A stretch of 64,000 nucleotides of DNA from Acidimicrobiales bacterium (GTDB taxonomy: Bacteria; Actinomycetota; Acidimicrobiia; Acidimicrobiales; Aldehydirespiratoraceae), in the NCBI GenBank assembly GCA_040219515.1, contig JAVJSI010000014.1, positions 310,001 to 374,000 of the forward strand. Reading direction: 5' to 3'. Every line of letters starts with the position of its first letter. The first letter of the stretch is position 1. A program made the translations under genes and the position numbers. The notes beneath the pieces were generated by a model. It searched no databases, had not been told where the DNA came from, and worked only from the letters and a program-made list of their open reading frames with translations. Shown piece by piece: positions 10,479-27,791 of the stretch.

Positions 10479-11860
10479 GAGTCCCTCGTAGTGGTGTAGG
10501 TCGGGGTCATCGCCGTGATGGTGGTGGCCATCGTGCGATTCTCAGAAGTGACAAAACGAACTGAGAAGGACACCGCACGATGACCACATCTGATTCTGCC
10601 TTGAACGCGCTCTCCGCGTCGCTGACCGCCGCCGATTCGCCGTTGGCGGCGTCGCTGGCCGAGATCCTCACGGACGCGATCCAGGACCTGATCGAGGCCG
10701 AACTCACGGCCCGGATCGGCGCCGAGCACGGCGAACGAACCCTGAGCCGATCGAACCTGCGCAACGGACACCGCGACAAGCTGTTATCGACCCCGGCCGG
10801 GGATCTCACCCTCGGGATCCCGAAGCTGCGCAAGGGGTCGTTCTTCCCGGAGCTGCTCGAGCCGCGGCGCCGCATCGACAAGGCCCTGTGGGCGGTGATC
10901 ATGACCGCCTACATCACCGGCACCTCCACGAGAAAGGTCGATGATCTGGTGAAGGCGTTGGGCTGTGACACCGGCATCTCCAAGAGCACCGTGTCGCGGA
11001 TCTGCAAACACCTCGACGCCGATGTCGCGGTGCTCCGCAACCGCGATCTTGGCCATCAGGCGTTCGTGTATCTGTGGCTCGACGCCACCTACGTCCACGT
11101 CCGCGAGGGCGGCCAGGTCGTCTCCAAAGCCGTGGTGATCGCGACCGGGCTGCGTGCTGATGGTTACCGCGAAGTGCTTGGTGTCGATGTCGGCGACTCC
11201 GAGAACGAGACGTTCTGGACCGACTTCCTGCGCGGCCTCGTCGAACGGAACCTGCACGGCGTGCGCCTCGTGATCTCCGACGCCCACGCCGGACTGAAAG
11301 CCGCGATCCGACGCGTGTTCCAAGGAGCCGGCTGGCAACGATGCCGAGTCCACGCCATGCGCAACTTCCTCGCCGTCGCCAAGCATCAACACCGGCTCAT
11401 GATCGCCGCGTTGATCCGCACGATCTTCGCCCAACCCGACGCCGACGCCGCCCGAACCCAGCTCCGCGCCGTGGTCACTCAGCTCGAGTCGGTCGCGCCC
11501 GAAGTCGCCGTCAAACTCGAAGCCGCCGAAGACGACCTCCTCGCCTACACGACCTACCCGCCCGCGCACTGGACCAAGATCTGGTCGAACAACCCCATCG
11601 AACGACTCAACCGAGAACTGAAACGACGCACCGATGTCGTTCAGATCTTCCACAACACCGAGTCCGTCATCCGCCTCGTCGGCGCTCTCCTCGTCGAGGT
11701 CAACGACGAAATGATCTCCTCCGAGCGCCGCTACATCGCCGCCGCATCCGTCGCCGCCCTCACCGACCAAGAGGAGAACCAACTAACATCGCTCCCCGCA
11801 GCACCCCGAACCTGAACAACCGGGAATCGCACAACCCACCTACACCACCCCACGGGACTC
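10479..11860 (+). mobile_element. IS256-family insertion sequence, complete
   Basis: A 1382-bp element with imperfect terminal inverted repeats: GAGTCCCTCGTAGTGGTGTA at the left and, read inward from the right, GAGTCCCGTGGGGTGGTGTA. It encodes one intact transposase. IS256 elements normally make 8-9 bp target duplications; the flanks here (CGTCGGGT on the left, AATCTTCG on the right) do not match, so the ends were recombined or the target has drifted. Confidence 0.85.
10580..11815 (+). CDS. IS256-family (Mutator-like) transposase
   Basis: A 411-aa transposase, full length for the family. The DDE triad is visible: Asp in [10 protein letters not shown], Asp in [13 protein letters not shown] and Glu in [18 protein letters not shown], the last being the family's hallmark C-terminal block. 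The N-terminal part carries the usual RNGHRDK and [14 protein letters not shown] phrases. It is intact and probably still capable of catalysis. The ATG follows GAGAAGGACACCGCACG, a modest ribosome binding site. Confidence 0.92.
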
Positions 11861-12024: not shown

Positions 12025-12900
12025 TCAGGCTGCCTCGGTGGAGGCGGTGTAGGTCTCGGCGGGGGTTCGGTGGCCGAGGCGGGCTTGGTGTCGTCGCCGG
12101 TTGTAGAAGGTCTCGATGTAGTCGAAGAGCACGGTGCGGAGCTGGCTTCGGGTCATGTGTTCCCAGTCGCCGTGGATATGTCGGATCTCCTTCTTGATGG
12201 TGGCCCAGGTGGATTCCATGGCGGCGTTGTCCCAGCACACGCCGGTGCGGCCGAACGACGCCGCGACGTTGTGGTCGGTCATGGTGAGCGCCAGGTCGCT
12301 CGAGATGTATTGGCCGCCGCGATCGGCGTGGTGGATCACTTTGCCGTCGGGGTGACGCCGAGCCAGCGCCATCACCAACGCGTTGACGACGATGTCGGCG
12401 GTCGCTCGGTTCGACATCGACCAGCCGGCCAGACCTCGATCGTGGAGATCCAAGATGCCGGCCAAGAAGAGTTTGCCGTCGCGGCATTTGAACTCGGTGA
12501 TGTCGGCCAGCCAGCGTTGGTTCGATGCGTCGGCGGTGAAGTCTCGGCCGATCAGATCCGGCCCCGGGGCCGTGCCCGGCTTGCGACCGCGGCGCCATTT
12601 GCGGCGGCCGTGCACGCCAACCAGGCCGCACTCGGCCATGATCCGCGCCACGCGTTTGCGGCCCACCCGCCGGTCGCGGTGTTGGAGCTGGCCGAGCACC
12701 CGAGGGGTGCCGTAGGTGCGCTGGGAGGTTTCGTGGATCTCGAAGATCTCCGCTGCGAGATCGACATCGGCCAGATAGTGCGCCGACAACGGCCGATCAC
12801 GCCACGCGTAGAAACCCGACCTCGAGCACTCAACGAGCTCACACAACCGCTTCACCGGATAGTCGGCGCTGTGGTCTTGGACGAACCGGAAGCGGGTCAC
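12025..12900 (-). CDS. IS3-family transposase OrfB (integrase core)
   Basis: A 291-aa protein with an HTH_21-like N-terminus (RTYGTPRVLGQLQHR) and an rve-type integrase core. The DDE residues are Asp in LADITEF, Asp in IHHADRGGQYIS and Glu in NAAMESTWATIKKE, followed by the usual YNRRRHQARLGHRTPAE. It begins with GTG at 12900, overlapping the stop of orfA by four bases (GTGA). This suggests coupled re-initiation; the programmed -1 frameshift usual in IS3 elements is the alternative. Confidence 0.9.
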   Translation of the reverse strand: MTRFRFVQDHSADYPVKRLCELVECSRSGFYAWRDRPLSAHYLADVDLAAEIFEIHETSQRTYGTPRVLGQLQHRDRRVGRKRVARIMAECGLVGVHGRRKWRRGRKPGTAPGPDLIGRDFTADASNQRWLADITEFKCRDGKLFLAGILDLHDRGLAGWSMSNRATADIVVNALVMALARRHPDGKVIHHADRGGQYISSDLALTMTDHNVAASFGRTGVCWDNAAMESTWATIKKEIRHIHGDWEHMTRSQLRTVLFDYIETFYNRRRHQARLGHRTPAETYTASTEAA

Positions 12901-13181
12901 CGGATCGTCTCCCGGGCGAAATACGCGGCTGCCTTGCGCAGGATCTCGCGGTCCATCCGCAGATCCTGATTCTCCTTACGCAACCGAGCCAGCTCCGCAC
13001 GCTCACCCGGATCCAAAGCCCCCGGTTGGCTCGCCTCGTCGGCTTCCTTCACCCAGGCGGCGAGCGAACCATCCGAGATGCCGAGCGATTCCGCGATCTT
13101 GCACCGAGGCCGATCCGACGATCGATACAACTCGACCGCCTCACGCCGGAACTCCTCGGGATACTTCGATGGACGACCCAT
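12897..13181 (-). CDS. IS3-family transposase OrfA (HTH)
   Basis: A 94-aa protein, MGRPSKYPEEFRREAVELYR and onward, with a homeodomain-like HTH (KIAESLGISDGSLAAWVKEA) and a C-terminal leucine-zipper-like coil (LRKENQDLRMDREILRKAA). OrfA binds the IS ends and supplies DNA recognition to the OrfAB transposase. The ATG at 13181 is chosen because AAGGAGG precedes it at good spacing. Confidence 0.88.
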   Translation of the reverse strand: MGRPSKYPEEFRREAVELYRSSDRPRCKIAESLGISDGSLAAWVKEADEASQPGALDPGERAELARLRKENQDLRMDREILRKAAAYFARETIR

Positions 13182-13248
13182 CCGGGCCTCCTTCCCCTGG
13201 ACGTGCATCCAGGATCGGGTGTCCACCAAACCGGGTCAACTCCAGACA

Positions 13249-13520
13249 CCGTCAGTTCGCCCCCGGCGTCAAGCAGCGTCTGTTGGTAGGGGTAGACGGG
13301 AACCCGAATGCCATCCTCCCGGCCCTCATCTGATTGCCCCACGACTCGCCCTTTCGGCCTCGGGCGCACTGTGCCGCAGAGAGCGTGTCGAGCACAAGGC
13401 CGAGTGTTGCCTGAGCGCGTGCCAAACGGGCCGCACTCCGCGATTCAGGGCGCAGCCCCCTGTCTCGGATAGCCCCGCCGCTGTCGTATCGGCTGGCTAT
13501 GGTCAACGAAGGAGGATCGA
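13249..13520. other. Gap between IS3 element and the defence island
   Basis: On the minus strand a short frame from ATG 13369 (RPKGRVVGQSDEGREDGIRV) runs into the IS3 end and may be the 5' stub of a gene destroyed by the insertion. No family is recognisable. AAGGAGG at 13509-13515 is the ribosome binding site of the methyltransferase that follows. Confidence 0.3.
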
Positions 13521-15470
13521 GTGGGGAAGACGACAGTTGAGAAGGGCTCGTACGGGGTCAAGCTTGTGCGGGGTCCGTTCGTGGAACTCCCGCATCATCC
13601 GAAGGCCGTGGACGACGTCGACGAGCTCCGTGGGCTCGCCACCAGGCTGGACGGGCCGTTGGCCGCCGACCTGTTCTGCGGGGCGGGGGGCCTCAGCCTT
13701 GGCCTGGCCGAAGCCGGCTATTCCGTGGTCCTCGGAGTCGACAACGATGACGATGCGCTCGCCACACATCGCGCATACCACCCCGGCCTCAGCGTCAACT
13801 GGGATCTTGGCGACGAGGAAATCGTCGAGAGCACGGGCGAGCTGATTCGTGATCTCGGCATCGAGATTGTTGCGGGTGGGCCGCCCTGTCAGCCGTTCTC
13901 GAAGGCGGGCCGATCCGGCCTGCGCGACCTGGTTCGCACGGGCAGGCGCGATGCCCACGACAAGCGCAGCGAGCTCTGGCAGAGCTTCCTCCGGATTGTG
14001 TCGATCGCACGACCTCGAGCGGTCCTGATGGAGAACGTGCCGGACATGGCCCTCGATCGGGACATGCTGATTCTGCGCACGATGGCCGATGAGCTTGAGC
14101 ATCTGGGTTACTCGGTCGAAACCAGAGTTGTCGACACCTGGCGGTACGGAGTTCCGCAGCATCGTCAGCGTCTGATACTCGTCGCGCTGGCTGATCGAAC
14201 CCGTTTCGTCTGGCCCGCCGAGCACGCGCAGGTTGTGACGCTCGGAAACGCCATTTCCGATCTCCCGCCTGTCGAGGGTGGTTGGCGGCCGGATGGCGGA
14301 GCGGAGGGATGGGCCGACTACGACGGACCCCGAACCTCGTACCAGGAGAAGATGCGGGAGCAGGTGCGGATTGATGATTGGGGAAAGCTGTTCGACCACA
14401 TCACCCGTCCTGTCCGTGAGGACGATCTGCAGATTTTCGAGAACATGGACTCGAAGACCAAGTACTCCGACATCGATCCCGAGTTGCGGCGCTATCGACA
14501 CGACATCTTCGATGACAAGTACAAGCGCCTCGACTACGACGACCTGAGTCGAACGATCACCGCCCACATCGCCAAGGACGGATACTGGTACATCCATCCC
14601 GAGCAGCACCGCACGATTAGCGTGCGGGAAGCAGCACGAATCCAGACGTTCCCCGATCATGTTCGATTCTCCGGCCCGCCGACCGCCGCGTTCCGACAGA
14701 TCGGCAACGCGGTCCCTCCTCGCCTTGGATTCGAGCTGGGAACCGCAATCACGGCCAGCCTGGAGCGGGCCGACGAGGTTCCGCATACCCGTTCCGAGGT
14801 GGGGCTGAAACTTGCCCGCTGGTACATGAAGTCACCACGCGGAGGAGTCCCATGGCTTGATGCACCGAACAGATGGGTGGTGCTGCAGTGCGAGATTCTC
14901 TGGCCGCGGCTCAGCACTGACCAGCTCGGCGCGGCGTACAAGGCGACACTGGCGTGCGCGACGCCGCAGCAGACACTTGAGAACGAGGGACCGCTGCGGC
15001 GAATAGCCACCGTGCTCGGCCGCGGGCCCCGTGTGGATGACCTGATCGCGACTGCGGAGTACTTCGTTGACAACCCGAACGGGCTCGAGCCGAACACCCC
15101 GTCGGAGGAGTTGGCCAAGGCGCCGAACGTCAGTGCGACACTGGCGGCGTTCGCTGCCCGCATTGTCCCTGGAGCCTCCGAGGACCCTGTGATCGTGAAC
15201 CAAGCGGTGCTTCGGGTTGCCGCCCGATACCACGGGACGTCCGTCGATCAACGCAACAAGCTCAGCGACGGCCGGTTGGCGGTTGCCGCCATGATCGGTG
15301 GCGATGACCTCTCGCACGAAGCGCACCTCGCCCTTCTCGAGATCGGCCAGACGGTCTGCGGCCCGTCCAAAACGGACTGCGCGCACTGCCCGCTCGAGGC
15401 CGACTGCGTGGTGGCAGCGGACCTACCGATCCAGCAGTCGATGGTGGTGCTTACCAGCCCAGAGCCGTAG
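13521..15470 (+). CDS. C5-cytosine DNA methyltransferase fused to an endonuclease III-like Fe-S domain
   Basis: A 649-aa fusion. Residues about 45-410 are a Dcm-type methyltransferase with motif I (ADLFCGAGGLSLGL), motif IV with the catalytic Cys (GGPPCQPFS), motif VI (ENVPD), motif VIII (QHRQRLILVAL) and motif X (RQIGNAVPPRLG). Residues about 430-640 resemble HhH-GPD glycosylases of the endonuclease III/MutY/Mig group and end in the full [4Fe-4S] ligand set C-x6-C-x2-C-x5-C (VCGPSKTDCAHCPLEADC). The helix-hairpin-helix Gly-rich loop is altered (APNVSATLAAFAA) and the usual catalytic Asp aligns with Asn (VIVNQAVLRVAAR), so glycosylase activity is uncertain. The predicted role is self-marking by 5-methylcytosine plus recognition or repair of T:G mismatches arising from it. 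GTG start with AAGGAGG. Its 3' end overlaps the convergent ATPase gene by 20 bp. Confidence 0.85.
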   Translation: MGKTTVEKGSYGVKLVRGPFVELPHHPKAVDDVDELRGLATRLDGPLAADLFCGAGGLSLGLAEAGYSVVLGVDNDDDALATHRAYHPGLSVNWDLGDEEIVESTGELIRDLGIEIVAGGPPCQPFSKAGRSGLRDLVRTGRRDAHDKRSELWQSFLRIVSIARPRAVLMENVPDMALDRDMLILRTMADELEHLGYSVETRVVDTWRYGVPQHRQRLILVALADRTRFVWPAEHAQVVTLGNAISDLPPVEGGWRPDGGAEGWADYDGPRTSYQEKMREQVRIDDWGKLFDHITRPVREDDLQIFENMDSKTKYSDIDPELRRYRHDIFDDKYKRLDYDDLSRTITAHIAKDGYWYIHPEQHRTISVREAARIQTFPDHVRFSGPPTAAFRQIGNAVPPRLGFELGTAITASLERADEVPHTRSEVGLKLARWYMKSPRGGVPWLDAPNRWVVLQCEILWPRLSTDQLGAAYKATLACATPQQTLENEGPLRRIATVLGRGPRVDDLIATAEYFVDNPNGLEPNTPSEELAKAPNVSATLAAFAARIVPGASEDPVIVNQAVLRVAARYHGTSVDQRNKLSDGRLAVAAMIGGDDLSHEAHLALLEIGQTVCGPSKTDCAHCPLEADCVVAADLPIQQSMVVLTSPEP

Positions 15471-16725
15471 CGAGATCCTCGTCGGTTGATCGCAGCTCGG
15501 TCATGATCCGCTCGAGAGCGGCGTAGTCCCCACTTACCATCGCGGCGGCCAGCAGAGACGCCCCGGCGGTGCCCAGCTGGTGGTTCGCGGGTCGGTCCGA
15601 AGGAGCGGTGCGCGCCTTCAGCACGGATGCCTGACGGTAGACCTCCTCTGCCGCTTGGCAGAGTTCCTTGACCGGGCGCTCCAGCTGCGACCTGATCGTG
15701 GCAGGAATGTTGACCCGCATCTTCGCCACGTTCGTCTGCAGCAGGTCGTCGAGGTTGGTGTCGAACTCCAACGATGCGCGCGCCAACTTGGTGTGCTCAT
15801 CGATCGCCCGGATGCCGCTCCATCCTCCGCCCTGGATCAGGCGACCGGCCCGGTAGACGTAGAGCCCCTGTTGCCGGTTCCACTTCTGGGGACCGCTGTA
15901 GTGCTCGAACGCCTCCTGTGAGGAGAAACGATTGCGCGGTGGGAGTACGAACGGATTGAACGTAACGAATCCGGCAACACCGTCGAACTCGATCTCGAGC
16001 ACCGTGGCCGGCAGGGAGATCGTGCCCGGCTCGGTGGGAGCGAACGGGTCCCACGGATCGACCTTCTCGCCGTTGACCGTCAGGACGAGGTGGTCCGAGC
16101 TGGCGGAGTCGGCGAGGTACTGGTGGAACACCATCCCGAGGTACTCAGCGGTTCGCTCGGCCAGCGTCTCGAGCCTGCGACGGGCCCAGCCACCCTCCGG
16201 GTTCCGCTCAGGCAGCACGCGATCGAGTCGCTCCCAGGCCACCACGGTGCCGGGAGCGTCAGCCAGCGTCTCGGCGGCAAATTCCCGGATGGCCGGCGTC
16301 GCGGTGTCGAGGACCTCCCAACTGTCGCTCTCCTCGACATGATCGATATCGAGGACTCTCGTGGTGAGGCGGCGGCGCGTCGCCGCACGGCGTGAGATCA
16401 CAGTGAGTCGCCGACACTGGGAGATCGACGCCGTCTTGAGTCCCAGTCCGTAGCGGCCGAGCTCGTTGAGGCTGTAGCTCCTTCGGGATCCAAAACGCAT
16501 GGCTTCGTCGAGCCCTGTGGCGGTCATTCCTTCGCCGTCGTCGGCGATGAGTACTCGTGAGCCGGAGCCCCGAAAGTCGATCAGTACGTCGACTGTTGAG
16601 GCACCGGCTGAGACGCTGTTGTCCACCAAGTCCGCGATCGCCGTCACGAACTCGTAGCCGATATCGCGCAGGGAGTTTGTGAGCCGACCGGCGGATGGCG
16701 TCAGTTCGATTCGTTTGCCCCTCAT
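15451..16725 (-). CDS. MutL/MORC-type GHKL ATPase (copy A)
   Basis: A 424-aa ATPase of the HATPase_c_3 type. The N-box is AIADLVDNSVSAGA (near residues 30-42), the G1 box DDGEGM (near 63) and the G2 box LGRYGLGLKTAS (near 90). The position of the MutL catalytic Glu is Asp, as in the paralogue at 19413. The middle domain has WNRQQGLYVYRAGRLIQGGG, also shared with the paralogue. Such ATP-gated dimeric clamps cluster with methylases and Z1/AIPR genes. Here it is convergent with the methyltransferase and codirectional with vsr, so it probably serves the methylation/repair half of the island. ATG 16725 follows GGAGGG closely; a GTG at 16728 is adjacent. Confidence 0.85.
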   Translation of the reverse strand: MRGKRIELTPSAGRLTNSLRDIGYEFVTAIADLVDNSVSAGASTVDVLIDFRGSGSRVLIADDGEGMTATGLDEAMRFGSRRSYSLNELGRYGLGLKTASISQCRRLTVISRRAATRRRLTTRVLDIDHVEESDSWEVLDTATPAIREFAAETLADAPGTVVAWERLDRVLPERNPEGGWARRRLETLAERTAEYLGMVFHQYLADSASSDHLVLTVNGEKVDPWDPFAPTEPGTISLPATVLEIEFDGVAGFVTFNPFVLPPRNRFSSQEAFEHYSGPQKWNRQQGLYVYRAGRLIQGGGWSGIRAIDEHTKLARASLEFDTNLDDLLQTNVAKMRVNIPATIRSQLERPVKELCQAAEEVYRQASVLKARTAPSDRPANHQLGTAGASLLAAAMVSGDYAALERIMTELRSTDEDLATALGW

Positions 16726-16835
16726 CACCCCTCCGGTTTGTGACCTGACACTAGTGACGAGTTGTGACAGCGCGAACGATCCTCTCGGTTTGGACGTCGA
16801 CCAGCGGATTCATCGACGCAGCCAACACGGGGCAG

Positions 16836-17249
16836 TCACAGCTGTGCGCTGCGCTCCCTCCAGCGACCCTCAATGTGGTCGGCAACGTCCACGTGGTTCT
16901 CGTGTTCCCACATGTGAATGACCTCCCAGCCCAGTTCCCGCAGGGCTGCATCCTTTCGAGCGTCCCGTTCGCGCGTTCGTTGGAACTTCTCCTCCCACCA
17001 CGCCCGGTTGTTCTTTGGAACTGAGCCGTGCTCGTCGCAGGCGTGCCAGAAACAGCCGTCCACGAAGACCGCGATCCTGGCTCGGGTAAGGGCGACGTCC
17101 GGGGTCCCCGGCAGGCCAACCAGGTTCACCCGAAACCGAAGTCCTCGACGGTGCAGTTCTCTCCTGAGCAGGAGCTCCGGTCCGGAGTTGCGAACCGGCA
17201 TTCGGCTCATCTGGCGGCTGACTGCGACTGATTTCGGTCGGGGACCCAT
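16836..17249 (-). CDS. vsr: Very-short-patch-repair (Vsr-type) DNA endonuclease
   Basis: A 137-aa protein. The family signature is clear: RQMSRMPVRNSGPELLLRRE, GLRFRVNLVGLPGTPDVAL with the catalytic Asp, AVFVDGCFWHAC with the conserved His, and GWEVIHMWEHE at the C-terminus. Vsr nicks 5' of the T in T:G mismatches made by deamination of 5-methylcytosine, which limits mutation at sites methylated by a partner methylase. The partner is probably the fusion methylase 1.4 kb away. ATG 17249 is preferred; the open frame reaches a TTG at 17285. It lies upstream of the ATPase on the same strand with a 110-bp gap. Confidence 0.88.
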   Translation of the reverse strand: MGPRPKSVAVSRQMSRMPVRNSGPELLLRRELHRRGLRFRVNLVGLPGTPDVALTRARIAVFVDGCFWHACDEHGSVPKNNRAWWEEKFQRTRERDARKDAALRELGWEVIHMWEHENHVDVADHIEGRWRERSAQL

Positions 17250-17382
17250 CCGGAGAGTGTTGGCGTCCGGATCCCGACAGGGCAAGCGGGGTTCCTCACG
17301 GGGTTGTCACGGCTGTGGTGTACTTCATGTGGTGCCGCCGAGTTCGAGGCGGTTGAAAGCACGGCGCGACAGGGGCATTGAG

Positions 17383-19416
17383 TTGGCTACACCACTCCAC
17401 GAATCTCTAGAGGAGTATGCGGTGGAGCTCCGCCACGAGGTCGTGTCAATGGCGAACCAGGCTGAGGACGGGACGATGCTGGCCGAGGCCTTCACCGAAT
17501 ACGCGATGGACGCCATGACGGACACAGGCGACTGGCCTGAGAGCCAGCTCTGCTACCACCGCCAGCGCGGGTCCGAGATCTCGGGATGGGGATGGGACCC
17601 CGAGTCGGGGACCATCAACCTCGCCGTGACCCGCTTCGCCGGACTGGGAACCGTTGAACGCCTCTCGAAATCGGATGCGGCGGCCTCGCTTCGACGACTA
17701 CGCGGCTTTCTTGAGCGGAGCCTGTCGGGCTTCCATGATCAGCTGGAGGAATCCTCCCCGGCCTTTGACCTCGCCTACCGAATCCATGAGTCCGCCGACG
17801 CGATCGCCAACGCCCGGCTGTTTCTTCTCACAGACATGGTCACCAACCTCGAGGGCGAGAAGGCTGACCCGGTTGGAGAGATCTCCACAAGTCTCCATGT
17901 TTGGGACCTGGCCCGCCTGCATCGGCTCCACTCATCGGGGCGAACCCGCGAACGCATCGATATCGATATTGCCGGCTTCCACGGTGAAGGCCTGCGATAC
18001 CTCGAGGCGCCCTCCGGCGATCCCGATCTCAAGTCGTTTCTGCTCGTCATGCCCGGTCAGCTTCTCGCTGATCTGTACGTCAAGTACGGCCCCCAGCTGC
18101 TCGAGCTGAACGTCCGATCCTTTCTCCAGGCCCGCGGAAAGGTGAACCGCGGGATCAGACAGACAATCATCGACGCCCCCGAGCGAATCTTCGCCTACAA
18201 CAATGGGATCTCAGCCACGGCCTCCGGCGTTCGTTTCGGCACCGACGAGCACGGCGGCCGCAGAATTGTTTCGATCGAGGATCTTCAGATCGTCAACGGT
18301 GGCCAGACCACGGCCTCGATCGCGACGGTTCACAATCGGGACAAGCAGCCGGTCGAGGACGTGTTCGTCCAGGCCAAGCTCACAGTGGTGCCGGAGAACA
18401 AGGTCGCCGATCTGGTGCCGAAGATCTCACGGTTTGCAAATAGCCAGAACGCCGTCAGCGAAGCTGACCTCACGGCGAATGACGCCTTTCACGTGCAGTT
18501 GGAGAAGCTCTCGCGCACCGTCTGGGCGCCGGCCGTCGACGAAGCCGGCAACTCCGAGACACGATGGTTCTACGAACGCGCCCGCGGCCAGTACGCGGAC
18601 GCACTGGCCCGCGAACGAACGCCGGCGCGCAAGAAGAACTTCCGGCGCGTGCATCCCTCCGCGCAGAAGTTCACCAAGACCGACGTCGCCAAGTTCGAAA
18701 ACACATGGTCGCAGAAGCCGCACATCGTGAGCCGAGGAGCCCAGAAGAGTTTCTTTGAGTTCATGGACGGCCTGACAGCGGACGGTAAGGAGCCCCCGCT
18801 TCCGGGAGTCCCGTTCTTCCAGCAGCTCTGCGCGAAGGCGCTGATGTACAAGAGCGCCGAGAAGATTGTGGGTAGCCAGAACTTTGGCGGGTACCGGGCG
18901 AACATCGTTACCTACACTCTGAGTCGCATCAATCTGGCCACCGAGAACCGCTTGGACCTGCATGCCATCTGGATGCACCAGAAGATAGGGCCCGAGCTTG
19001 AGAGCGCGATCGAAGCGGTCTCCTACGATGCATTCGGGGTGATCACGCGTCCTCCCGGTGGCCAGAACGTCACGGAGTGGTGCAAGAAGTCCGACTGTTG
19101 GGAGCGGATGATGGAGGTGGAGGTCAACCTCGACCACCTCGGGCCGGAACTCATCTCCGAAGACACCAGCCCAGCCGACGGAAGCGGCGCCGGTCGGGCC
19201 CCGGAGAGTGTCAGCGCCGACGATTGGCGGCGCCTGACGGAGTGGATCGAAGAGGAGCGCAACCTCTCAGGGCATCACCTCAGCCAGGCGAGACTCATTG
19301 AGAACTCGATTCGGAGAGGCAGAGGTATCTCTCCTGCGCAGCGGAACGGCGCCGCAGAACTGGTCCGGCTCTGCGCTGAGCACGGATTCGAGTTCGGCGA
19401 GGTGCCAACCGCATGA
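17383..19416 (+). CDS. AIPR-family abortive-infection protein
   Basis: A 677-aa protein with the AIPR core: NVRSFLQARGKVNRGIRQTI (near residue 243), the YNNGISATA block (near 273) and DLQIVNGGQTTASIA (near 300). AIPR proteins are found in phage-resistance loci and in MutL/Z1-type (Mza-like) systems; their biochemical activity is not settled. The start is uncertain. The TTG at 17383, with AGGGGC at 17371-17376 upstream, gives the natural N-terminus LATPLHESLEEYAVELRHEV; an in-frame GTG near 17329 is the alternative. Its stop overlaps the next ATG by four bases, so it heads a four-gene unit with the second ATPase, Z1 and DUF4420 genes. Confidence 0.85.
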   Translation: MATPLHESLEEYAVELRHEVVSMANQAEDGTMLAEAFTEYAMDAMTDTGDWPESQLCYHRQRGSEISGWGWDPESGTINLAVTRFAGLGTVERLSKSDAAASLRRLRGFLERSLSGFHDQLEESSPAFDLAYRIHESADAIANARLFLLTDMVTNLEGEKADPVGEISTSLHVWDLARLHRLHSSGRTRERIDIDIAGFHGEGLRYLEAPSGDPDLKSFLLVMPGQLLADLYVKYGPQLLELNVRSFLQARGKVNRGIRQTIIDAPERIFAYNNGISATASGVRFGTDEHGGRRIVSIEDLQIVNGGQTTASIATVHNRDKQPVEDVFVQAKLTVVPENKVADLVPKISRFANSQNAVSEADLTANDAFHVQLEKLSRTVWAPAVDEAGNSETRWFYERARGQYADALARERTPARKKNFRRVHPSAQKFTKTDVAKFENTWSQKPHIVSRGAQKSFFEFMDGLTADGKEPPLPGVPFFQQLCAKALMYKSAEKIVGSQNFGGYRANIVTYTLSRINLATENRLDLHAIWMHQKIGPELESAIEAVSYDAFGVITRPPGGQNVTEWCKKSDCWERMMEVEVNLDHLGPELISEDTSPADGSGAGRAPESVSADDWRRLTEWIEEERNLSGHHLSQARLIENSIRRGRGISPAQRNGAAELVRLCAEHGFEFGEVPTA

Positions 19417-20876
19417 AGTTCGAGATCGTTGAGCCGGATCCAGCGGCTCTCATCGAGTCCCTGAGATCGTTCGGTTACTCGCTGGAGACAGCGATCGCAG
19501 ACCTGGTGGACAACAGCGTCACGGCCGGCGCGAGCAACATCGAGATCGCTTTCAACTGGACGGGGCCGGACTCCTGGATCACCGTTCTCGACGACGGCTC
19601 CGGGATCGAGCCGGAGCGGCTCAATGACGTCATGCGCCCTGGCTCGACGAACCCACTCGACGACCGAGACCCGGGAGACCTTGGGCGGTTCGGCCTTGGT
19701 CTGAAGACCGCAAGCTTTTCGCAGGCACGGTCACTCACCGTCCTCACCCGCAAGGACCCCGGTCCCCCCGCATGCCGACGATGGGACCTCGACCATGTTG
19801 GCCGCACCCGCCAGTGGCAACTACTCATGGAGCCGCGACCGGAGAGCGAAGACCGGCTTGGGGCACTGGACGACATGCCCACGGGCACGCTCGTCCTCTG
19901 GGAGAACCTGGACCGCGTCGTCGATGGCGATGCAACCGACTCGGACGCGCGCCACTTCTATGAGTCGGCTGCGAAGGTCGAGCAGCATCTCGCCGCCGTG
20001 TTTCAGCGGTTTCTTGGCAAGAAACTGCAGATCCGTCTGAACGGAAACTCGATTCAGCCTTGGGATCCCTTCTGCACCACTCATGACGCAACGCAGCCGC
20101 TACCGGAGGAGCGCCTCCCGTTTCGCAGCGGCTCCGTTCTCGTTAGGCCGTTCGTTCTTCCCCATCACTCCCTATTCGAGGACAAGCGCGCCCACCAGGA
20201 CGCCGGCGGCATCAAGGGCTGGAACGCGCAGCAGGGCTTCTACCTCTACCGCGGCGATCGACTCATCCTCTCGGGCGGCTGGATCATCGGCGGTTTCAAA
20301 CCCGAAGAGCACCACAAGCTGGCCAGGATCTCAATCGACATCGATCAGACAATGGATGCCGACTGGGCACTCGATGTGCGCAAGTCGCGGGCCAGACCCC
20401 CCGCCGGGCTTATCGACGACCTCATCCGTATCGCGCGGACGACACGCTCACGGGCCTCCGAGGTCTACCGCCACCGCGGAACCAAGCTGACCAGACTCGG
20501 TGGTCCCAAGGTCATCGAGCCCACATGGAAGGCCAGAAAGCAGGGCGGGGCGTACCACTACACGATCAACCGCAAGCACCCCCTTGTGGTTCAGGCGGAG
20601 AGCGACGATGTGGATCGCAGAACCTCGGTCCGTGCTCTGATCGATCTGCTCGAGGGGACGCTCCCCGTTGAGCGGATCGCATTCGACGCCTACCGCGATG
20701 GCGAGTCGATAGGCAATCCGGAGTCGGCGACGCCCTCGGGTGATCTGCTCGATGCAGCGCGAGCATTCATAGACAAGCTTGTCAGCGCTGGAACGTCGCT
20801 CGCGGACGCAAAGGCGGCACTGCTTGCCGTTGAGCCCTTCAGCTCCTACCCCGATGTTGTCGAAGCGATGGGCTGA
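19413..20876 (+). CDS. MutL/MORC-type GHKL ATPase (copy B)
   Basis: A 487-aa ATPase. N-box ETAIADLVDNSVTAGA, G1 LDDGSGIEPERL, G2 LGRFGLGLKTASFSQ. The middle segment WNAQQGFYLYRGDRLILSGG aligns with WNRQQGLYVYRAGRLIQGGG of copy A, so the two are clear paralogues, about 60 residues different in length. Copy B has a longer C-terminal tail. By gene order (AIPR, MutL-like, Z1, DUF4420) this is the ATPase of the effector operon. It overlaps the AIPR stop by ATGA; the following gap of 78 bp leads to Z1. Confidence 0.87.
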   Translation: MKFEIVEPDPAALIESLRSFGYSLETAIADLVDNSVTAGASNIEIAFNWTGPDSWITVLDDGSGIEPERLNDVMRPGSTNPLDDRDPGDLGRFGLGLKTASFSQARSLTVLTRKDPGPPACRRWDLDHVGRTRQWQLLMEPRPESEDRLGALDDMPTGTLVLWENLDRVVDGDATDSDARHFYESAAKVEQHLAAVFQRFLGKKLQIRLNGNSIQPWDPFCTTHDATQPLPEERLPFRSGSVLVRPFVLPHHSLFEDKRAHQDAGGIKGWNAQQGFYLYRGDRLILSGGWIIGGFKPEEHHKLARISIDIDQTMDADWALDVRKSRARPPAGLIDDLIRIARTTRSRASEVYRHRGTKLTRLGGPKVIEPTWKARKQGGAYHYTINRKHPLVVQAESDDVDRRTSVRALIDLLEGTLPVERIAFDAYRDGESIGNPESATPSGDLLDAARAFIDKLVSAGTSLADAKAALLAVEPFSSYPDVVEAMG

Positions 20877-20954
20877 TGTCCAGGGAGTCCGCAATGACTG
20901 AACTATCACCAAGAACAGCGGTCACGGGTCCTAGCCGAACCCGAGGCGGCTTCC

Positions 20955-23696
20955 GTGGCTGCTGACCTTCACGATGAAGCGGCCCGGATGGTCGCTTCGA
21001 TGCTCAACGCGCAGGAACAACGAGTCACCACCGAGTTGGTGCAGCAGTTCGTGGACGCGGCTCTGACGCTGCCGCAGTTCGGTGCTGCCGGACTCGATCA
21101 TGAGCGAATTGTTCGTTTGGTCAAGGCGACAATCAACGTGTGGGTTCCAGCCGCCTCCGTCCTCGAGGACAACACCGACCACATCGACTGGCTGGCCCTG
21201 AGACGCGCCGAGATCGAATGGACGTTCTGGGACCGCTACCGGCTGTGGCTTGAATCGAGGAAAGGATTTCCGACAGACGTCGTCAGAAAGACTGACGACG
21301 TCACCGACAACATTCTCGGCCGGCTGGAGGATCCACACCGAGAAGGCGCTTGGGATCGCAGGGGGCTCGTGGCCGGACAGGTCCAGTCAGGCAAGACGTC
21401 CAACTACCTCGGCTTGGCCTGCAAGGCAGCCGACGCCGGCTACAAGCTGATCGTGGTCCTCGCAGGAATCCACAACAGCCTCAGATCTCAGACCCAGGCC
21501 AGGCTCGACGAGGGACTCCTCGGCATCGACAGCCAGACCAGGGAGAGGATCGGGGTCGGGGCCCTGCCATCACAAAACCGACCCATGATCCACTCCCTTA
21601 CCTCGAGCGCTGACAACGGCGACTTCAAGCTGGCCACCGCCAACGCGGCCACGGTGAGGCTCGGGTCCGACCCGATCGTCGTAGTGATCAAGAAGAATGC
21701 GACGATCCTGCAAAACTTTCTCGAATGGGTGACGTCGCTCAACGCGATCGAGGGTGAGGACGGCCGCTCAATTGTCGAGGGCATCCCGATGCTGCTCATT
21801 GACGACGAGGCGGACAGCGCCTCAATCAACACCAAGGACAAGGAGGCCGACCCGACAAAGGTGAACCAACTGATCCGCATGGTTCTCAAGGGTTTCGAAA
21901 AGGTCGCCTACGTGGGTTACACGGCCACCCCGTTCGCGAATCTCTATATCAACGAAGAGCGTGACCATCCCGAGTACGGGCGCGACCTCTTCCCACGAAG
22001 CTTCATCGTCGCATTGCGCCCTCCGTCCAACTACACAGGGCCCGGGGATGTTTTCGGCGCAAGCTCGATACCTGAACTCGATAGATCCGCCACCGAGGGT
22101 CTGCCCATCGTCCGGTCCATCGCCGACTACGAGGGGTGGATCCCCGACCGCCACAAGAAGGAACTCGTACCCGGCCCGCTTCCCGCCTCCCTTACCGCAG
22201 CACTTCGATCATTTGTTCTGGCATCAACGATCCGTAGGGTCCGAGGTCAGGACACCCACAACTCGATGCTTGTGCACGTGACTCGGTTCACCGCCGTGCA
22301 GGGACTCGTGTTCGAGCAGATTGACGACTGGCTCTCACGGGCCAGGAACGAAATCCGTTACGGGGGAGAGCAAACGGAGCTACGAGACCAGCTCAAAGCC
22401 CTTTGGGAGGCCGACTTCGCCCCCACAACGGCGGCGATCGCCGAGCTGCATCCCGATCGAATCGATCCCACCAACCTCGCAATGACCTGGGGCGACATCA
22501 CCGCAGAGCTCGAAGAAGCCATCAACCGGATCGAGGTTCGCCGGATCAACGGGACCGCGAAGGACGCGCTGGACTACACGAGCGCTCCAAACCCGCTAAA
22601 CGTCATTGCCGTCGGTGGGGACAAATTGTCGAGAGGTCTCACGCTGGAGGGCCTGACCGTTAGCTACTACCTCCGCGCCTCCAAGATGTACGACACTCTC
22701 ATGCAGATGGGCCGGTGGTTCGGCTACCGCCCCGGCTACCTCGACCTGTGCAGACTTCACACCACCCACGAACTGATCGGCTGGTACCGGGACATCGCAG
22801 CAGCGTCAGAGGAGCTCTGGTCCGACTTTGAGGCAATGGCTGCAGCCCACGAGAACCCCGAGACCTTCGGGCTTCGTGTGCGTAGCCACCCTGACGGCCT
22901 TCTCGTCACAGCCGCCAACAAGATGCGCGATGGGGAGAAGCGCTCCCTCTCCTACGCTGCCTCGCTCACGGAGTCTGTGATATTCGACGCAAAGAAAGAA
23001 CGGGTTGAGAAGGACTATAAGACCCTCAGCGAATTTGTGGATTCACTCCACGGTGGTGGCCATGCGCCAGCCGGAACTGCAGCTCACCACTACTCTTGGA
23101 CTCGAGTCAGCCCAGAAGATGTTGCGGACTTTCTTGAGAATCTCTACAACAAGCCGATCCATTCGAGTACCCCGCGGGCTAACCCATCGCTCATTGCAAA
23201 TTACATCAGGCGTGCAGCATCAATGGGCGAACTATCAGACTGGACAGTGGTCTTGGTGAACAGCAAGGGCCGAGAGCCGCGGCGGCTGGCCAACTGCGAC
23301 GTTGGGTACACGACCCGAAGTAGGCAGGATGGAGGAGAGGACGGAGTATTCCGCATTCGCCGACTGCTCGACCCGACCCACGAGTGTCTTGACCTCAGTG
23401 AACAAGAACGAAGCTATGCACTTCAGCGAACCGTCGAAGCATGGATAGAAAGGACCGCAGGCAAGGGAACTAGACCAGTTGACCCATCTGGAACGTGCGC
23501 TCGGCGCGCGAGATCAAAGGATCGTGGCCTACTCCTCCTCTATCCACTGGTTCCGGTTGGTCAAGAGGAGCCAGACCTTCTTCCTTTTGTCGGGTATGGC
23601 GTGTCCCTGCCCCCGAGTACGACTGCTCCCCAGATCGAGTACATCGTGAACAACGTCTACGCACAGCAGGAGATCGACTTTGCGGACGAGGCTTGA
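20955..23696 (+). CDS. Z1-domain helicase-like ATPase
   Basis: A 913-aa protein. Walker A is VAGQVQSGKTSN (near residues 139-150), the DEAD-like box MLLIDDEADSAS (near 279-290), the SF2 motif III-like region YVGYTATPFANLY (near 318-330), and the Z1 hallmark GGDKLSRGLTLEGLTVSYYL followed by MQMGRWFGYRPGY. Z1 proteins are SF2-like ATPases found with MutL-like, AIPR and DUF4420 partners in defence loci; DNA translocation or remodelling is the expected role. The GTG start at 20955 gives MAADLHDEAARM. Its 3' end overlaps the next gene by 17 bp. Confidence 0.88.
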   Translation: MAADLHDEAARMVASMLNAQEQRVTTELVQQFVDAALTLPQFGAAGLDHERIVRLVKATINVWVPAASVLEDNTDHIDWLALRRAEIEWTFWDRYRLWLESRKGFPTDVVRKTDDVTDNILGRLEDPHREGAWDRRGLVAGQVQSGKTSNYLGLACKAADAGYKLIVVLAGIHNSLRSQTQARLDEGLLGIDSQTRERIGVGALPSQNRPMIHSLTSSADNGDFKLATANAATVRLGSDPIVVVIKKNATILQNFLEWVTSLNAIEGEDGRSIVEGIPMLLIDDEADSASINTKDKEADPTKVNQLIRMVLKGFEKVAYVGYTATPFANLYINEERDHPEYGRDLFPRSFIVALRPPSNYTGPGDVFGASSIPELDRSATEGLPIVRSIADYEGWIPDRHKKELVPGPLPASLTAALRSFVLASTIRRVRGQDTHNSMLVHVTRFTAVQGLVFEQIDDWLSRARNEIRYGGEQTELRDQLKALWEADFAPTTAAIAELHPDRIDPTNLAMTWGDITAELEEAINRIEVRRINGTAKDALDYTSAPNPLNVIAVGGDKLSRGLTLEGLTVSYYLRASKMYDTLMQMGRWFGYRPGYLDLCRLHTTHELIGWYRDIAAASEELWSDFEAMAAAHENPETFGLRVRSHPDGLLVTAANKMRDGEKRSLSYAASLTESVIFDAKKERVEKDYKTLSEFVDSLHGGGHAPAGTAAHHYSWTRVSPEDVADFLENLYNKPIHSSTPRANPSLIANYIRRAASMGELSDWTVVLVNSKGREPRRLANCDVGYTTRSRQDGGEDGVFRIRRLLDPTHECLDLSEQERSYALQRTVEAWIERTAGKGTRPVDPSGTCARRARSKDRGLLLLYPLVPVGQEEPDLLPFVGYGVSLPPSTTAPQIEYIVNNVYAQQEIDFADEA

Positions 23697-25167
23697 AACG
23701 CTCTGGACTGAGATGGAGGCCAACGACTCGCCAGCAGGAGTCGTTCGGCGCCTGCTGGATCCCAACTGGCCGGGTGAGCTCTCGGCCGCCATGGTCAAGC
23801 CCGACAACGCGCCGGCATTGCTATTGGAGGTGCCTGTCGGCATTCCCATCGATCCCGATCAACTCGCCAAGAGCGATGCCATAGAGGTAGCGACATCCGG
23901 CGACGCGGCCGGCGTGAGATCTATTCAGCTCACCCTCATCGATCCCCGGTTCCGCGACACGTTCCTCACCCTGAGTGCCGATCTCGCCGAGCGCGTCCTT
24001 GCCACCAGCACCCCAGCTGATGGGGCCCGAGCGCTTGTTCACAATCTGGGACGCTGGCTCCGGTTTCTGAAGCGGCGCAAGGCCGACGTGCTCACCGTCG
24101 AACGACAAACCGGCCTGTACGGCGAGCTGGCGACCCTCGCCGACCTCCTCGCCGATTCCATCGGCTTCTCCGCTGCGGTTTGGGCTTGGACCGGACCCAA
24201 CGGCGCCTATCAGGACTTCCAGCTCGGACGCCTCGCGATCGAGGTGAAGACGCTCGCTGCAACCCAGCCCCAACAGCTACGTATCGAGACCGAGCGGCAA
24301 CTCGACGACCGGGGTCTCGACGCCTTGGTGGTCGCCCATCACAAGGTCGACCGCCGCCGCGACGCTGGGAGAAGTCTTCCCGACCTCGTTGAGTACATCC
24401 GCGATGGACTCGCGGGCGACGAGGTCGCCCGCGAGCACTTAGATGACCAGCTCTTCGAGGTCGGATACCTCGATGCACACGCCCACCTCTACGCGCAACA
24501 CGGCTACGCCGCGCGCGGTGACGCGTACTACCGCGTTGGTATCGGTTTCCCGAGAATCGTGGAAGATGATCTCCGACCGGGACTGGGAGCCGTTCGCTAT
24601 ATGATCGACGCCTCCGCGTGTTCCCCCTTCGAGATTGACTCCGGACAGGTCGCCGCCTGGGTCCGTGAGGCGCCGGTGCCCGACGATCCGATTACGTCCG
24701 ACGAGAGTCAGCATCTCGAGTTCAAGGCATCAGCATGGGCGGCTCAGGACCCGAACGTGCCCTCGAAGGTCATCAACGAAAGCACTGTGAAGGCAATCGC
24801 CGGTTTCCTCAACGCCGAGGGCGGCCTTCTCGTTGTCGGTGTCGAGGACAGGACACGAGGCATCCTCGGAATCCAGACCGATCTCGACTACCTCGATACC
24901 GACGTTGATGACTACGAGAACCGGCTCACCACCCTCGTTATTGAGGCTGCAGGGGCGGCGGCCGCTGCCAACGTCAGGGTTTCGTTCGAAGACCGCGAGG
25001 GAGCCACCGTCTGCCTTGTGGCGGTGAGGCCATCTGCGTCGCCCGTCTTCTGCGATTCGCCTGCCAGGAAGGACCGCAAGGGGATCTTCTGGGCGAGGAT
25101 CAACAACAGCACCCGCGAACTCAGCGCCGAGGAACTTGTCACATACATCCGCACCCACTGGGGATGA
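23680..25167 (+). CDS. DUF4420 (PD-(D/E)XK) protein fused to an AlbA_2 (Schlafen-type) domain
   Basis: A 495-aa fusion. Residues about 85-320 are DUF4420, a restriction-endonuclease-like fold: RQTGLYGELATLADLL, then Asp near 179 (YQDFQLG) and E-x-K near 187-189 (AIEVKTLA). Residues about 341-490 are AlbA_2: SDESQHLEFKASAW, FLNAEGGLLVVGVEDRT and the C-terminal FWARINNSTREL. AlbA_2 occurs in Schlafen-like nucleic-acid-binding proteins and in transcriptional regulators. The known DUF4420 partner in Z1 loci lacks it as far as I recall. The start is TTG 23680, inside the Z1 gene; an ATG at 23713 would shorten it by 11 residues. It is the last gene of the effector operon. Confidence 0.82.
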   Translation: MRTRLETLWTEMEANDSPAGVVRRLLDPNWPGELSAAMVKPDNAPALLLEVPVGIPIDPDQLAKSDAIEVATSGDAAGVRSIQLTLIDPRFRDTFLTLSADLAERVLATSTPADGARALVHNLGRWLRFLKRRKADVLTVERQTGLYGELATLADLLADSIGFSAAVWAWTGPNGAYQDFQLGRLAIEVKTLAATQPQQLRIETERQLDDRGLDALVVAHHKVDRRRDAGRSLPDLVEYIRDGLAGDEVAREHLDDQLFEVGYLDAHAHLYAQHGYAARGDAYYRVGIGFPRIVEDDLRPGLGAVRYMIDASACSPFEIDSGQVAAWVREAPVPDDPITSDESQHLEFKASAWAAQDPNVPSKVINESTVKAIAGFLNAEGGLLVVGVEDRTRGILGIQTDLDYLDTDVDDYENRLTTLVIEAAGAAAAANVRVSFEDREGATVCLVAVRPSASPVFCDSPARKDRKGIFWARINNSTRELSAEELVTYIRTHWG

Positions 25168-25181
25168 CCGAACAGCAGGGC

Positions 25182-27791
25182 TCAACGTTCCGAGCGGCTT
25201 CGTTTCCCCAGGATCTCAGCGATCTGAGGGTCGTGCTCCGCTCCGCACAGACACCACACGCCGTCCACCACCTCGTCCACAATGGCCATTGAAGCGAGAG
25301 TGCTCGCAGCCGGACGGCTCCGCGTGTCGTACTCCCAGAGCTGGTTCGCCAATTCCTCGGTGGAGCAGACGCCGCCGCGCGAGAAAGCTATGGCTTCCGC
25401 AACGGTCAGCTCGAGTTCGCTGAGCATCTCGTCCGAGGGTTGCTCGCTTGTGTACACCAACTGCTGGTCATCGACGGTGAGCCCGTCCACCAGTTCCGCC
25501 CACCGGGTAAGTACCTCTCCCGGCGGGACGAAATCGGTCCCCTCATGAGGAGTTGATCCCCCCATGGCCTGTCGCAGCAGCGCTCTTTGCAGGTCCGATC
25601 CCGTGAATGATCGGCTCGCGACATACGCAATCTTCTCTGCTACCCGGACCGCGTTTGACGGGTCGTCATCGGACGTGGTGAACCACCACCAACCATCGCC
25701 GATCTTCACTCCGCCACGCGTTTCGGCGAGGATTCGCTGAAGATCCGGCAACGATGTTGTGAATCCGGCATCCACCAGCCTGTCGATCGCGTCGCTCACT
25801 CGGAGGAACCCGTATGGTTCAGAAATCCTCCGCAGCTCGCTCTCGATGTCGACGCCGGGATCCGCCGCCGTGGTCCCGGTGCCTCCAGTTGAAGGACCGA
25901 AACGAGAAAGCCGCAGGCGTTGTCCGTCAGTCCCGAGTAGATCGGCGATTGCTGAGGGGACCAGAACGACTGCTGCGTCTTGATTCGGCCCGACGGCGCG
26001 ATCGGCGCGCTCAAGCGAGATGATTGTCTGCTCCAGCTGCGGCAGCCAGACCCGGCCCTCTGCCTTCTTTCTGGTAGCAGTCCGAAGTCTCAGGAACCGC
26101 TGTCTTGACAGCGAGCCTGCCGCCGCTGATTCGGTTGAGTTTCCGGGCTGATGTCCACGCATTCCTATGTAGGCGTGGAGGGCGGCCTCCTCATCGCCTG
26201 TAGGTGACGTGTGGCCAATGACCCGACTCGCAGCCTCCTGAAGAGGCAGCGAGTTGAACTCCTCAACCTCGGCCGCGAGGGAAAGGAGTTTCTCGGCACG
26301 GCTCAGCCGGGCGGGTGTCGAGCTCGCTTCGATTTTCCGGCGTAGCGCCGCACACTCGTCGCGAAGACTGGCGAAGTCGACGGGTGCGCCAAGCGAGATG
26401 AAATTGGAGTGGAAACCGTCGGCCCACGGAAGGCCCTCAACATGCTCCAGACCGCCGATGACAACCGGGTCTGCGAGGTTGGAGGCCGGCTTCGGAGAGG
26501 CGACTCGGGCGATCAGGTCGCGTAGCTCGTTGAGACGACGGTGGTTTCTCGTGATGGTGCTGACGGCCCTGGCAGCGGGGTCGGAGCCTGGCTGGCGGCC
26601 CTCTGCTGCCGGCCCACTCGGAACCGGAATTCCAGCGGCTTCCATGAAGGCGGCAATCGAGTCGCCCGGAACATCCCGCTTCTTCGGTTGGAGCGCGCGC
26701 CATGCAGTTGCGATCTCCAGACCGGAACGGAACCGAAGGCGGAGCTGATTCTTGTTGGCCTCGGAGAGATCAAGTTCAAGGATGGCGCTGAGGGTGTCGG
26801 CTGACCAGGCGACGATGAGCCGGTCCTCTTCGCGCGCGAAGTCAGCCAGCTCTCCAAGTGCGAGCTTCGGCGCCAGCGACTTCCACTGCAGATGGTCGAC
26901 GCCAACCAGATCCAGTCGAACGGATGACTCCAAATCGCAGCCGCCGAGGTCGTAGTGCTGGAGCGACAATGGGCCGCCAGGCCTGCTGAGATACATGATC
27001 CCGAGGACGCCCGACCTGTTGTCCGCGTGCATCTCGAAGCGGACGTAGACGGCCCGCTCTGCGTCGCTGTCCAGGATCGAGCTCCGCTCCGCGAGCGGAG
27101 CGCCCGTATCGGTATCCGCAGAATCGACTCTCTGGCTGAACGCGGCGGCTGTGTCCTGCCCCGGCTCATGGCGAACGTGTCCCGTTGCTTTCCCCGCTTC
27201 GGCCTCAGGGCGAAAGGAGACTGGCTCGCTTCCGGTTGGCGCCCGCTCGGCTGCCGGTGATCTGGTTGGGCCCGCGGCCCGCGGCTTGCCCTTGGCGGCG
27301 TTGCCCTGCAGCTGCGAGCGTCTCTTACCGATCTGCTTGACGAGGTATCCGACCTTGCCCACTGTCTCGCCTCGTCGGACGGCGGTCTCGACTGTCTCGT
27401 AGGGGTGGTTCGCCAACCAGCCCGGCAGCTTCCGTTGGAGTTCGCGTATCTCCGCTTTCGAAACCAGCTGGTGAGCATTCCGGAACTCGTGTACGAGCGA
27501 TTCGACCTCGCTAGTGGCTTGGTCATTGCCGTCGCTGATTGGAGCTGAGCGGCTCGAGACAACTCCTTGACGGGCTCGTGAACCCGGCTCGTGGTGGGTT
27601 CCTGCCGCGGGCTTCGAATCCTTGGGCGCCGTGGCCTGAGCCCCTGCGATTGAGCGGAGCAGACTGCTCGAGAGCTCCATGGTTCCGTCGTTGCGCGCCC
27701 TCTGCTGCGACGCTCTCGAGGAGTCCTTTGGGTTCCCGAGTTTCCCTCTACGGCGAAGCTCCCGAAGCGCCATCTCTGCCGTGATCTCCAT
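25182..27791 (-). CDS. Large protein with degenerate RNase H-like exonuclease domain and winged-helix repeats
   Basis: An 869-aa protein. After a 220-residue low-complexity and coiled region, residues about 240-420 align with the 245-aa exonuclease at 29340: AVYVRFEMH versus AIYVDFEGR, EDRLIVAWSADT versus QDRLIVAWSQHD, and NHRRLNELRDLIAR versus HNYFDLDSMREIVIR. The catalytic acids are all altered, so this copy is probably inactive and structural. The C-terminal 250 residues contain repeated winged-helix-like units (ISEPYGFLRVSDAIDRLVDA). ATG 27791 follows GGAG at good spacing; GTG 27797 is possible. It is convergent with the DUF4420 gene (14-bp gap) and lies downstream of two genes on the same strand. 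Confidence 0.6.
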   Translation of the reverse strand: MEITAEMALRELRRRGKLGNPKDSSRASQQRARNDGTMELSSSLLRSIAGAQATAPKDSKPAAGTHHEPGSRARQGVVSSRSAPISDGNDQATSEVESLVHEFRNAHQLVSKAEIRELQRKLPGWLANHPYETVETAVRRGETVGKVGYLVKQIGKRRSQLQGNAAKGKPRAAGPTRSPAAERAPTGSEPVSFRPEAEAGKATGHVRHEPGQDTAAAFSQRVDSADTDTGAPLAERSSILDSDAERAVYVRFEMHADNRSGVLGIMYLSRPGGPLSLQHYDLGGCDLESSVRLDLVGVDHLQWKSLAPKLALGELADFAREEDRLIVAWSADTLSAILELDLSEANKNQLRLRFRSGLEIATAWRALQPKKRDVPGDSIAAFMEAAGIPVPSGPAAEGRQPGSDPAARAVSTITRNHRRLNELRDLIARVASPKPASNLADPVVIGGLEHVEGLPWADGFHSNFISLGAPVDFASLRDECAALRRKIEASSTPARLSRAEKLLSLAAEVEEFNSLPLQEAASRVIGHTSPTGDEEAALHAYIGMRGHQPGNSTESAAAGSLSRQRFLRLRTATRKKAEGRVWLPQLEQTIISLERADRAVGPNQDAAVVLVPSAIADLLGTDGQRLRLSRFGPSTGGTGTTAADPGVDIESELRRISEPYGFLRVSDAIDRLVDAGFTTSLPDLQRILAETRGGVKIGDGWWWFTTSDDDPSNAVRVAEKIAYVASRSFTGSDLQRALLRQAMGGSTPHEGTDFVPPGEVLTRWAELVDGLTVDDQQLVYTSEQPSDEMLSELELTVAEAIAFSRGGVCSTEELANQLWEYDTRSRPAASTLASMAIVDEVVDGVWCLCGAEHDPQIAEILGKRSRSER

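Follow-up and report, generated by a model that had tools for sequence, protein, structure and literature searches.

A C5-cytosine methylase fused to a degenerate MutY/Mig-like domain in an MZA-like defence locus

What does a DNA repair fold do on a modification enzyme once the residue that served base excision has gone? The question is raised by a single open reading frame in a 64,000-nucleotide stretch of Acidimicrobiales DNA (hereafter the window), in which a C5-cytosine methylase continues into a domain resembling MutY and Mig. The answer bears on more than one gene: a repair enzyme fold appears to have been recruited into a restriction-type defence system, and the domain is conserved across its family although the excision residue is gone. 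Whether systems of this type monitor the mutagenic damage that they themselves cause can be tested directly at this locus, which also points to a paraMORC ATPase as a specific partner in MZA-like systems.

The fused protein and its family

The fused gene has the following layout:
13521-15470, plus strand: fused gene, C5-cytosine methylase with a C-terminal MutY/Mig-like HhH-[4Fe-4S] domain (open reading frame with a GTG start, 649 aa)
13665-14750, plus strand: methylase domain, residues 49-410 (Pfam PF00145, DNA_methylase, E=4e-56)
14808-15422, plus strand: degenerate MutY/Mig-like domain, residues ~430-634 (profile and fold matches)

Residues 49-410 are a C5-cytosine DNA methyltransferase: PF00145 scores 191 bits against a cut-off of 22, and the methylase motifs (PPC, ENV and others) are unchanged in an alignment of 22 full-length relatives. 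The remainder is less easily named. Taken alone, the last ~220 residues have no Pfam match; plain phmmer against the PDB aligns query residues 6-213, nearly the whole domain, with MutY (E=4e-7), and the NCBIfam mutY model matches at E=1e-9, with a score far below its curated cut-off. A profile built from 24 fused homologues finds MutY (5e-20), Mig.MthI (1kea; 9e-20) and endonuclease III (2e-12) in the PDB. A template-free AlphaFold2 model of the domain (pLDDT 85, pTM 0.78) leads to the same proteins: below E=1e-3, Foldseek against the PDB returns only MutY, Mig and endonuclease III, the best matches at a TM of about 0.69-0.72. The full-length model of the fused protein reaches a pTM of 0.82. 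Predicted fold and sequence homology together place the domain, by descent, in the HhH-GPD superfamily, and the profile scores put it nearer to MutY and Mig than to endonuclease III.

The fusion itself is real, as the first-pass annotation of this DNA had proposed when it put a methylase and a [4Fe-4S] domain into one reading frame; its suggestion of kinship to Mig.MthI is borne out by the profile match, and the structure prediction that it called for returns the HhH-GPD fold. Its label "endonuclease III-like" holds for the fold and the ligand spacing and gives way to MutY and Mig as nearest relatives. A zinc ribbon, the alternative it had named, or a chance cysteine pattern is ruled out by the whole-domain MutY/Mig profile and fold matches, with the cysteines at the cluster position of MutY and endonuclease III. 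Nor does the fusion stem from sequencing or assembly, given homologues in many independent genomes and low dN/dS in the tested pairs; a housekeeping MutY swallowed by the methylase is ruled out by the MutY-like gene that the genome has of its own (331-aa frame). Directly upstream lie a Mutator-family transposase (10580-11815) and an IS3-type transposase pair (12025-13229); the IS3 element ends ~290 bp ahead of the fused-gene start, which may mean that the system is rearranged at its left edge. No RNA families are found in window positions 12800-25300.

How widespread is this architecture? The search for other C5 methylase-HhH fusions yields 28 distinct fused homologues (24 alignment rows plus L182, L184, L185 and L188), 27 in Actinomycetota and one, more divergent, on a cyanobacterial plasmid (Synechococcus); the hosts include Acidimicrobiales, Frankiaceae, Streptomyces, Embleya and Mycobacterium. 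In a sample of 396 genomes of the phylum, all methylases that fall in this subfamily (E<1e-50) carry the fusion. It is absent from the equivalent methylases in the Z1 systems of Pseudomonadota, Bacteroidota and Bacillota, and in Pseudarthrobacter; these end soon after motif X, at 26-63 residues past it where the pattern located that motif. Fused and unfused methylases part in the tree with one change (weak support, 32/76, the unfused rows being very long branches), which is compatible with a single origin of the fusion. A viral origin is rejected: no fused relatives are found in viral contigs or phage records, and the viral methylases retrieved align to the methylase part only.

The fusions are of two kinds, a core group (n=15) with the whole domain and divergent members in which its N-terminal half is degenerate or missing. 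Three shorter fused methylases (L071 8576-10336, L072 5934-7685 and L188) have only the C-terminal half, with the RVAxR helix and the four cysteines, and the cluster part can thus outlast loss of the first half of the fold. Three Frankiaceae loci (L034 8471-13241, L038 8666-13454 and L039 8420-13130) each carry two fused methylases of different kinds, one core and one divergent, on opposite strands with Vsr in between. In genome G440 (L069 4074-10105), overlapping frames split each of two genes, the fused methylase and Z1, which points to a decaying copy or assembly errors.

Residues kept and lost in the domain

Does the domain still cut bases? The positions that bear on this question are:
14892-14909, plus strand: E458 (MutY Glu43 position) to R463 (MutY Gln48 position), from the alignment
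15021-15023, plus strand: R501 (MutY Tyr88 position), from the alignment
15198-15200, plus strand: N560, at the catalytic Asp position (EcNth D138, GsMutY D144)
15357-15407, plus strand: the four [4Fe-4S] ligand cysteines C613, C620, C623 and C629

In MutY and endonuclease III, the [4Fe-4S] cluster sits in a DNA-binding loop. The cysteines that would hold it here are present in 28 of 28 fused relatives, with the spacing C613-x6-C620-x2-C623-x5-C629 noted in the first reading of the sequence. That reading had also seen the altered HhH glycine loop and the Asn in place of the catalytic Asp; both observations are correct, and both losses are family-wide. None of the 28 relatives has Asp at its position, where N, G, K, T, A, R or S stands instead. 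Core members have A, S, T or V, never Lys or Tyr, at the Lys120/Tyr126 position, and S, T, A or N for the second Gly of the HhH hairpin (Gly-h-Gly); a few divergent members retain the hairpin Gly, and Gly-x-Gly is lost in most fusions.

Loss of the Asp alone would be no proof of inactivity, because Sis-HhH-GPD of Saccharolobus works with Ser at this position (PMC11754123). This enzyme resembles the domain in its HhH-GPD fold, its Fe-S cysteines and its non-Asp residue; however, it is stand-alone and active via Glu134 at the Lys120 position, which is A, S, T or V in the core group. With the Asp, the Lys or Tyr at 120/126 and the second hairpin Gly all gone from core members, base cleavage by known chemistry is unlikely. 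The fold need not suffer: solved D138N/D144N MutY structures are among the structural neighbours of the domain model, so a domain without the Asp can keep its fold.

GsMutY touches the lesion through Tyr88 and the intercalating Gln48 (PMC10993402); both positions are Arg in all 15 core members, and the Glu43 position is Glu in 14 of them. The divergent members have neither the two arginines nor the Glu43-type Glu and are missing part of the domain. After the old active site, most core members share a new motif, N-x-[LM]-[ST]-[DE]-GRLA-x-A-x-[LM]-IG. The MutYs compared have a more basic cluster loop, and most members of the domain family are acidic (pI about 5-6), as are some true MutYs. By the NG86 method, the domain has a dN/dS of 0.086-0.094, where the methylase of the same pairs has 0.041-0.045; these values, rough with dS near saturation, point to strong purifying selection on the domain.

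Set against its relatives, the domain shares with the MutY/MUTYH catalytic domain the fold, the four-cysteine spacing, the Glu43 position and the RVxAR helix; unlike MutY, it has no catalytic Asp and no Tyr126, its hairpin Gly is changed, and Gln48 and Tyr88 have become Arg, in a protein without a NUDIX domain and joined to a methylase. Mig.MthI is a T:G glycosylase genetically linked to a cytosine methylase. Its profile score is nearly equal to that of MutY, and its Arg47 (numbering of the aligned chain) likewise occupies the inserting Gln48 position, but it is a separate, active enzyme, whereas the domain has lost the catalytic Asp and is part of a methylase. Endonuclease III shares the fold and the Fe-S ligand spacing; it is the weaker match, and the domain lacks its Lys120 and Asp138.

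The defence locus and the partners of the fusion

The fused gene is followed by a compact set of genes:
15451-16728, minus strand: MORC_A, a paraMORC-type GHKL ATPase (HATPase_c_3, 1e-29), convergent with the fused gene and overlapping it by 20 bp
16836-17285, minus strand: Vsr very-short-patch mismatch endonuclease (TIGR00632; conserved core aligned, start codon uncertain)
16918-19416, plus strand: AIPR/MzaE-like protein (PF10592, 1.6e-97; start uncertain, probably near 17347)
19413-20876, plus strand: MORC_B, an MzaB-like paraMORC GHKL ATPase (profile matches)
20955-23696, plus strand: MzaC-like Z1-domain protein (PF10593, 3.8e-81)
23680-25167, plus strand: MzaD-like PD-(D/E)XK protein (DUF4420; PF14390, 8.8e-70) with a C-terminal SLFN_AlbA_2 domain (PF04326, 4.9e-14)

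PADLOC models match the adjacent homologues of MzaB (5e-97), MzaC (1e-201), MzaD (1e-22) and MzaE (2e-86); the NCBIfam equivalog scores for MzaB to MzaE all lie below their cut-offs (412 of 850, 757 of 1500, 144 of 420 and 402 of 1050 bits). The MzaA sigma factor has no match among the ten window proteins scanned. The Vsr assignment is firm, TIGR00632 scoring 114.5 bits against a cut-off of 97.85, and the first-pass annotation was right to place a Vsr next door. By gene content, the fused gene belongs to an MZA-like, or Z1-DUF4420-AIPR, restriction-type system with Vsr. Similar systems are on record: predicted systems combining Z1, DUF4420, a cytosine methylase, AIPR and MORC have the same gene set as here (Miller et al., 2022; PMC9523054), and paraMORC restriction-modification neighbourhoods bring together GHKL ATPases, cytosine methylases and Vsr nucleases (Iyer et al., 2008; PMC2292703). 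The locus shares with MZA (mzaABCDE) its MzaB-, C-, D- and E-like proteins, and with the type II system of Miller et al. the cytosine methylase, the MORC-type ATPase and AIPR; it differs from both in its sub-threshold equivalog scores, in having no MzaA among the genes examined, and in its additional methylase domain, extra paraMORC and Vsr. The main texts of PMC2292703 and PMC9523054 make no mention of a glycosylase, and that of PMC2292703 none of an HhH domain. In the literature searched, where few subscription journals were covered and absence is accordingly not firm, no C5 methylase joined to an Fe-S domain of the MutY/Mig type is described; the methylase is of a known type and stands in a known, if poorly understood, kind of defence system.

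Gene content varies somewhat among fusion loci, some of which have a different gene set in place of the AIPR part. One such set includes a trio ending in DUF6339, its functions uncharacterised, which stands beside the fused methylase in a same-genus genome (G424; L063 10919-14580) and on the Synechococcus plasmid (L081 256-3898). Judged by length, L035 has an MzaD-like protein similar in size to the AlbA_2 (Schlafen) fusion of the window. One Frankiaceae locus (L034 3968-6904) encodes a protein of 978 aa in which sigma-70 regions 2-4 lie close to the middle; weakly similar to the GHKL ATPases, this protein is possibly an MzaA-like part of the Frankiaceae loci.

Which of these neighbours tracks the fusion? 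The first reading of the locus had passed over the paraMORC (MutL-like) ATPase that accompanies every core fusion: a MORC_A orthologue is present in 15 of 15 core loci, directly convergent (tail-to-tail) in most. Across the 396 genomes, such orthologues (E<=1e-60, excluding the window's own paralogue) are confined to the four genomes with a core fusion. The divergent fusions L070-L073 have no MORC_A nearby. Vsr is found in at least 11 of the 15 core loci; counts of Vsr, Z1 or AIPR are lower bounds, as some loci stop at contig ends. Vsr also stands beside the unfused methylases of equivalent systems in Agrobacterium, Neorhizobium, Hymenobacter and Rhodovastum, and its presence therefore says little about the domain; as support for T:G detection, Vsr adjacency is uninformative.

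Possible roles of the domain

If the domain does not cut, why has it been kept? The pattern of retained and lost residues suggests that it has probably lost its function as a base cutter and taken on that of a sensor or docking part, with lesion detection among its possible tasks. We favour, at about an even balance of confidence, a glycosylase fold reused on the methylase as a non-cleaving DNA reader. The protein would be the modification methylase of an MZA-like/Z1-DUF4420-AIPR restriction-type defence system, to which a domain of MutY/Mig descent has been added that has probably given up base excision. This domain would keep the glycosylase fold and the [4Fe-4S] cluster so as to grip DNA next to the methylase and examine it. 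Candidates for what it may read are a mismatch, a modified base (oxidised or phage-modified), T:G, or the methylation state of the site; two arginines would stand in for the lesion-contacting residues of MutY, and the domain would then position the methylase or recruit the neighbouring MutL-like paraMORC ATPase. This non-cleaving reader is favoured because fold and ligands are kept while excision residues are lost, the lesion-facing positions of MutY are arginine, selection is strong and the ATPase partner is dedicated. Against it stand the lost hairpin Gly-x-Gly, the less basic cluster loop, the mostly acidic domain, and the divergent members, which have neither the two arginines nor a complete domain.

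The fold may instead have come off DNA altogether to serve as a docking scaffold that binds the paraMORC ATPase or stabilises the methylase. This is the main rival, somewhat unlikely in our estimate: the hairpin Gly and the basic cluster loop are largely gone, the domain is mostly acidic, MORC_A pairing is strict in core loci, and the new conserved motif (RNxLSDGRLA..IG) occupies the region after the old active site. However, a domain with no role on DNA would hardly be expected to have invariant Arg at both lesion-contacting positions and to retain the MutY-type Glu, and some divergent fusions (L070-L073) do without a nearby MORC_A.

Could the domain inspect the methylase's own product? Built into the methylase, a non-cutting glycosylase may sense either the methylation state of the enzyme's own site or, in T:G, the by-product of deamination, and signal through the dedicated MutL-like paraMORC ATPase to Vsr or the restriction machinery, a proposal we rate as unlikely; if true, it would make the protein a self-checking modification enzyme, and the domain a lesion- or mark-sensing arm of phage defence. 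The original suggestion, detection of the mutagenic by-product built into the methylase with Vsr as a second route, survives in part: fold, ligands, Mig kinship and the neighbouring Vsr agree with it, but Vsr does not track the domain. As a working T:G detector that passes the site to Vsr, a special case overlapping the DNA-reader model, it appears less likely again: Mig.MthI, one of the closest relatives of solved structure, shares the Arg at the Gln48 position, Vsr is frequent in core loci and the locus has a MutL-like ATPase, as VSP repair does; yet Vsr equally accompanies unfused methylases, and no T:G-specific residue signature is established.

Continued excision by an unusual chemistry is improbable. 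The Glu43-type residue, nearly constant in the core group, might act on a damaged or phage-modified base, with Sis-HhH-GPD as a precedent for activity with Ser at the Asp position; that enzyme, however, needs a Glu where core members have A, S, T or V, no constraint at all is seen at the Asp position, and the Glu43-type Glu is itself missing from divergent members. Very improbable, finally, is a redox or nitric-oxide switch in which the cluster senses stress and alters methylase activity: the four cysteines are the most conserved feature and shortened members keep mainly the cluster end, but no regulatory gene tracks the fusion, and the structural role of the cluster in the DNA-binding loop of MutY and endonuclease III accounts for the conservation.
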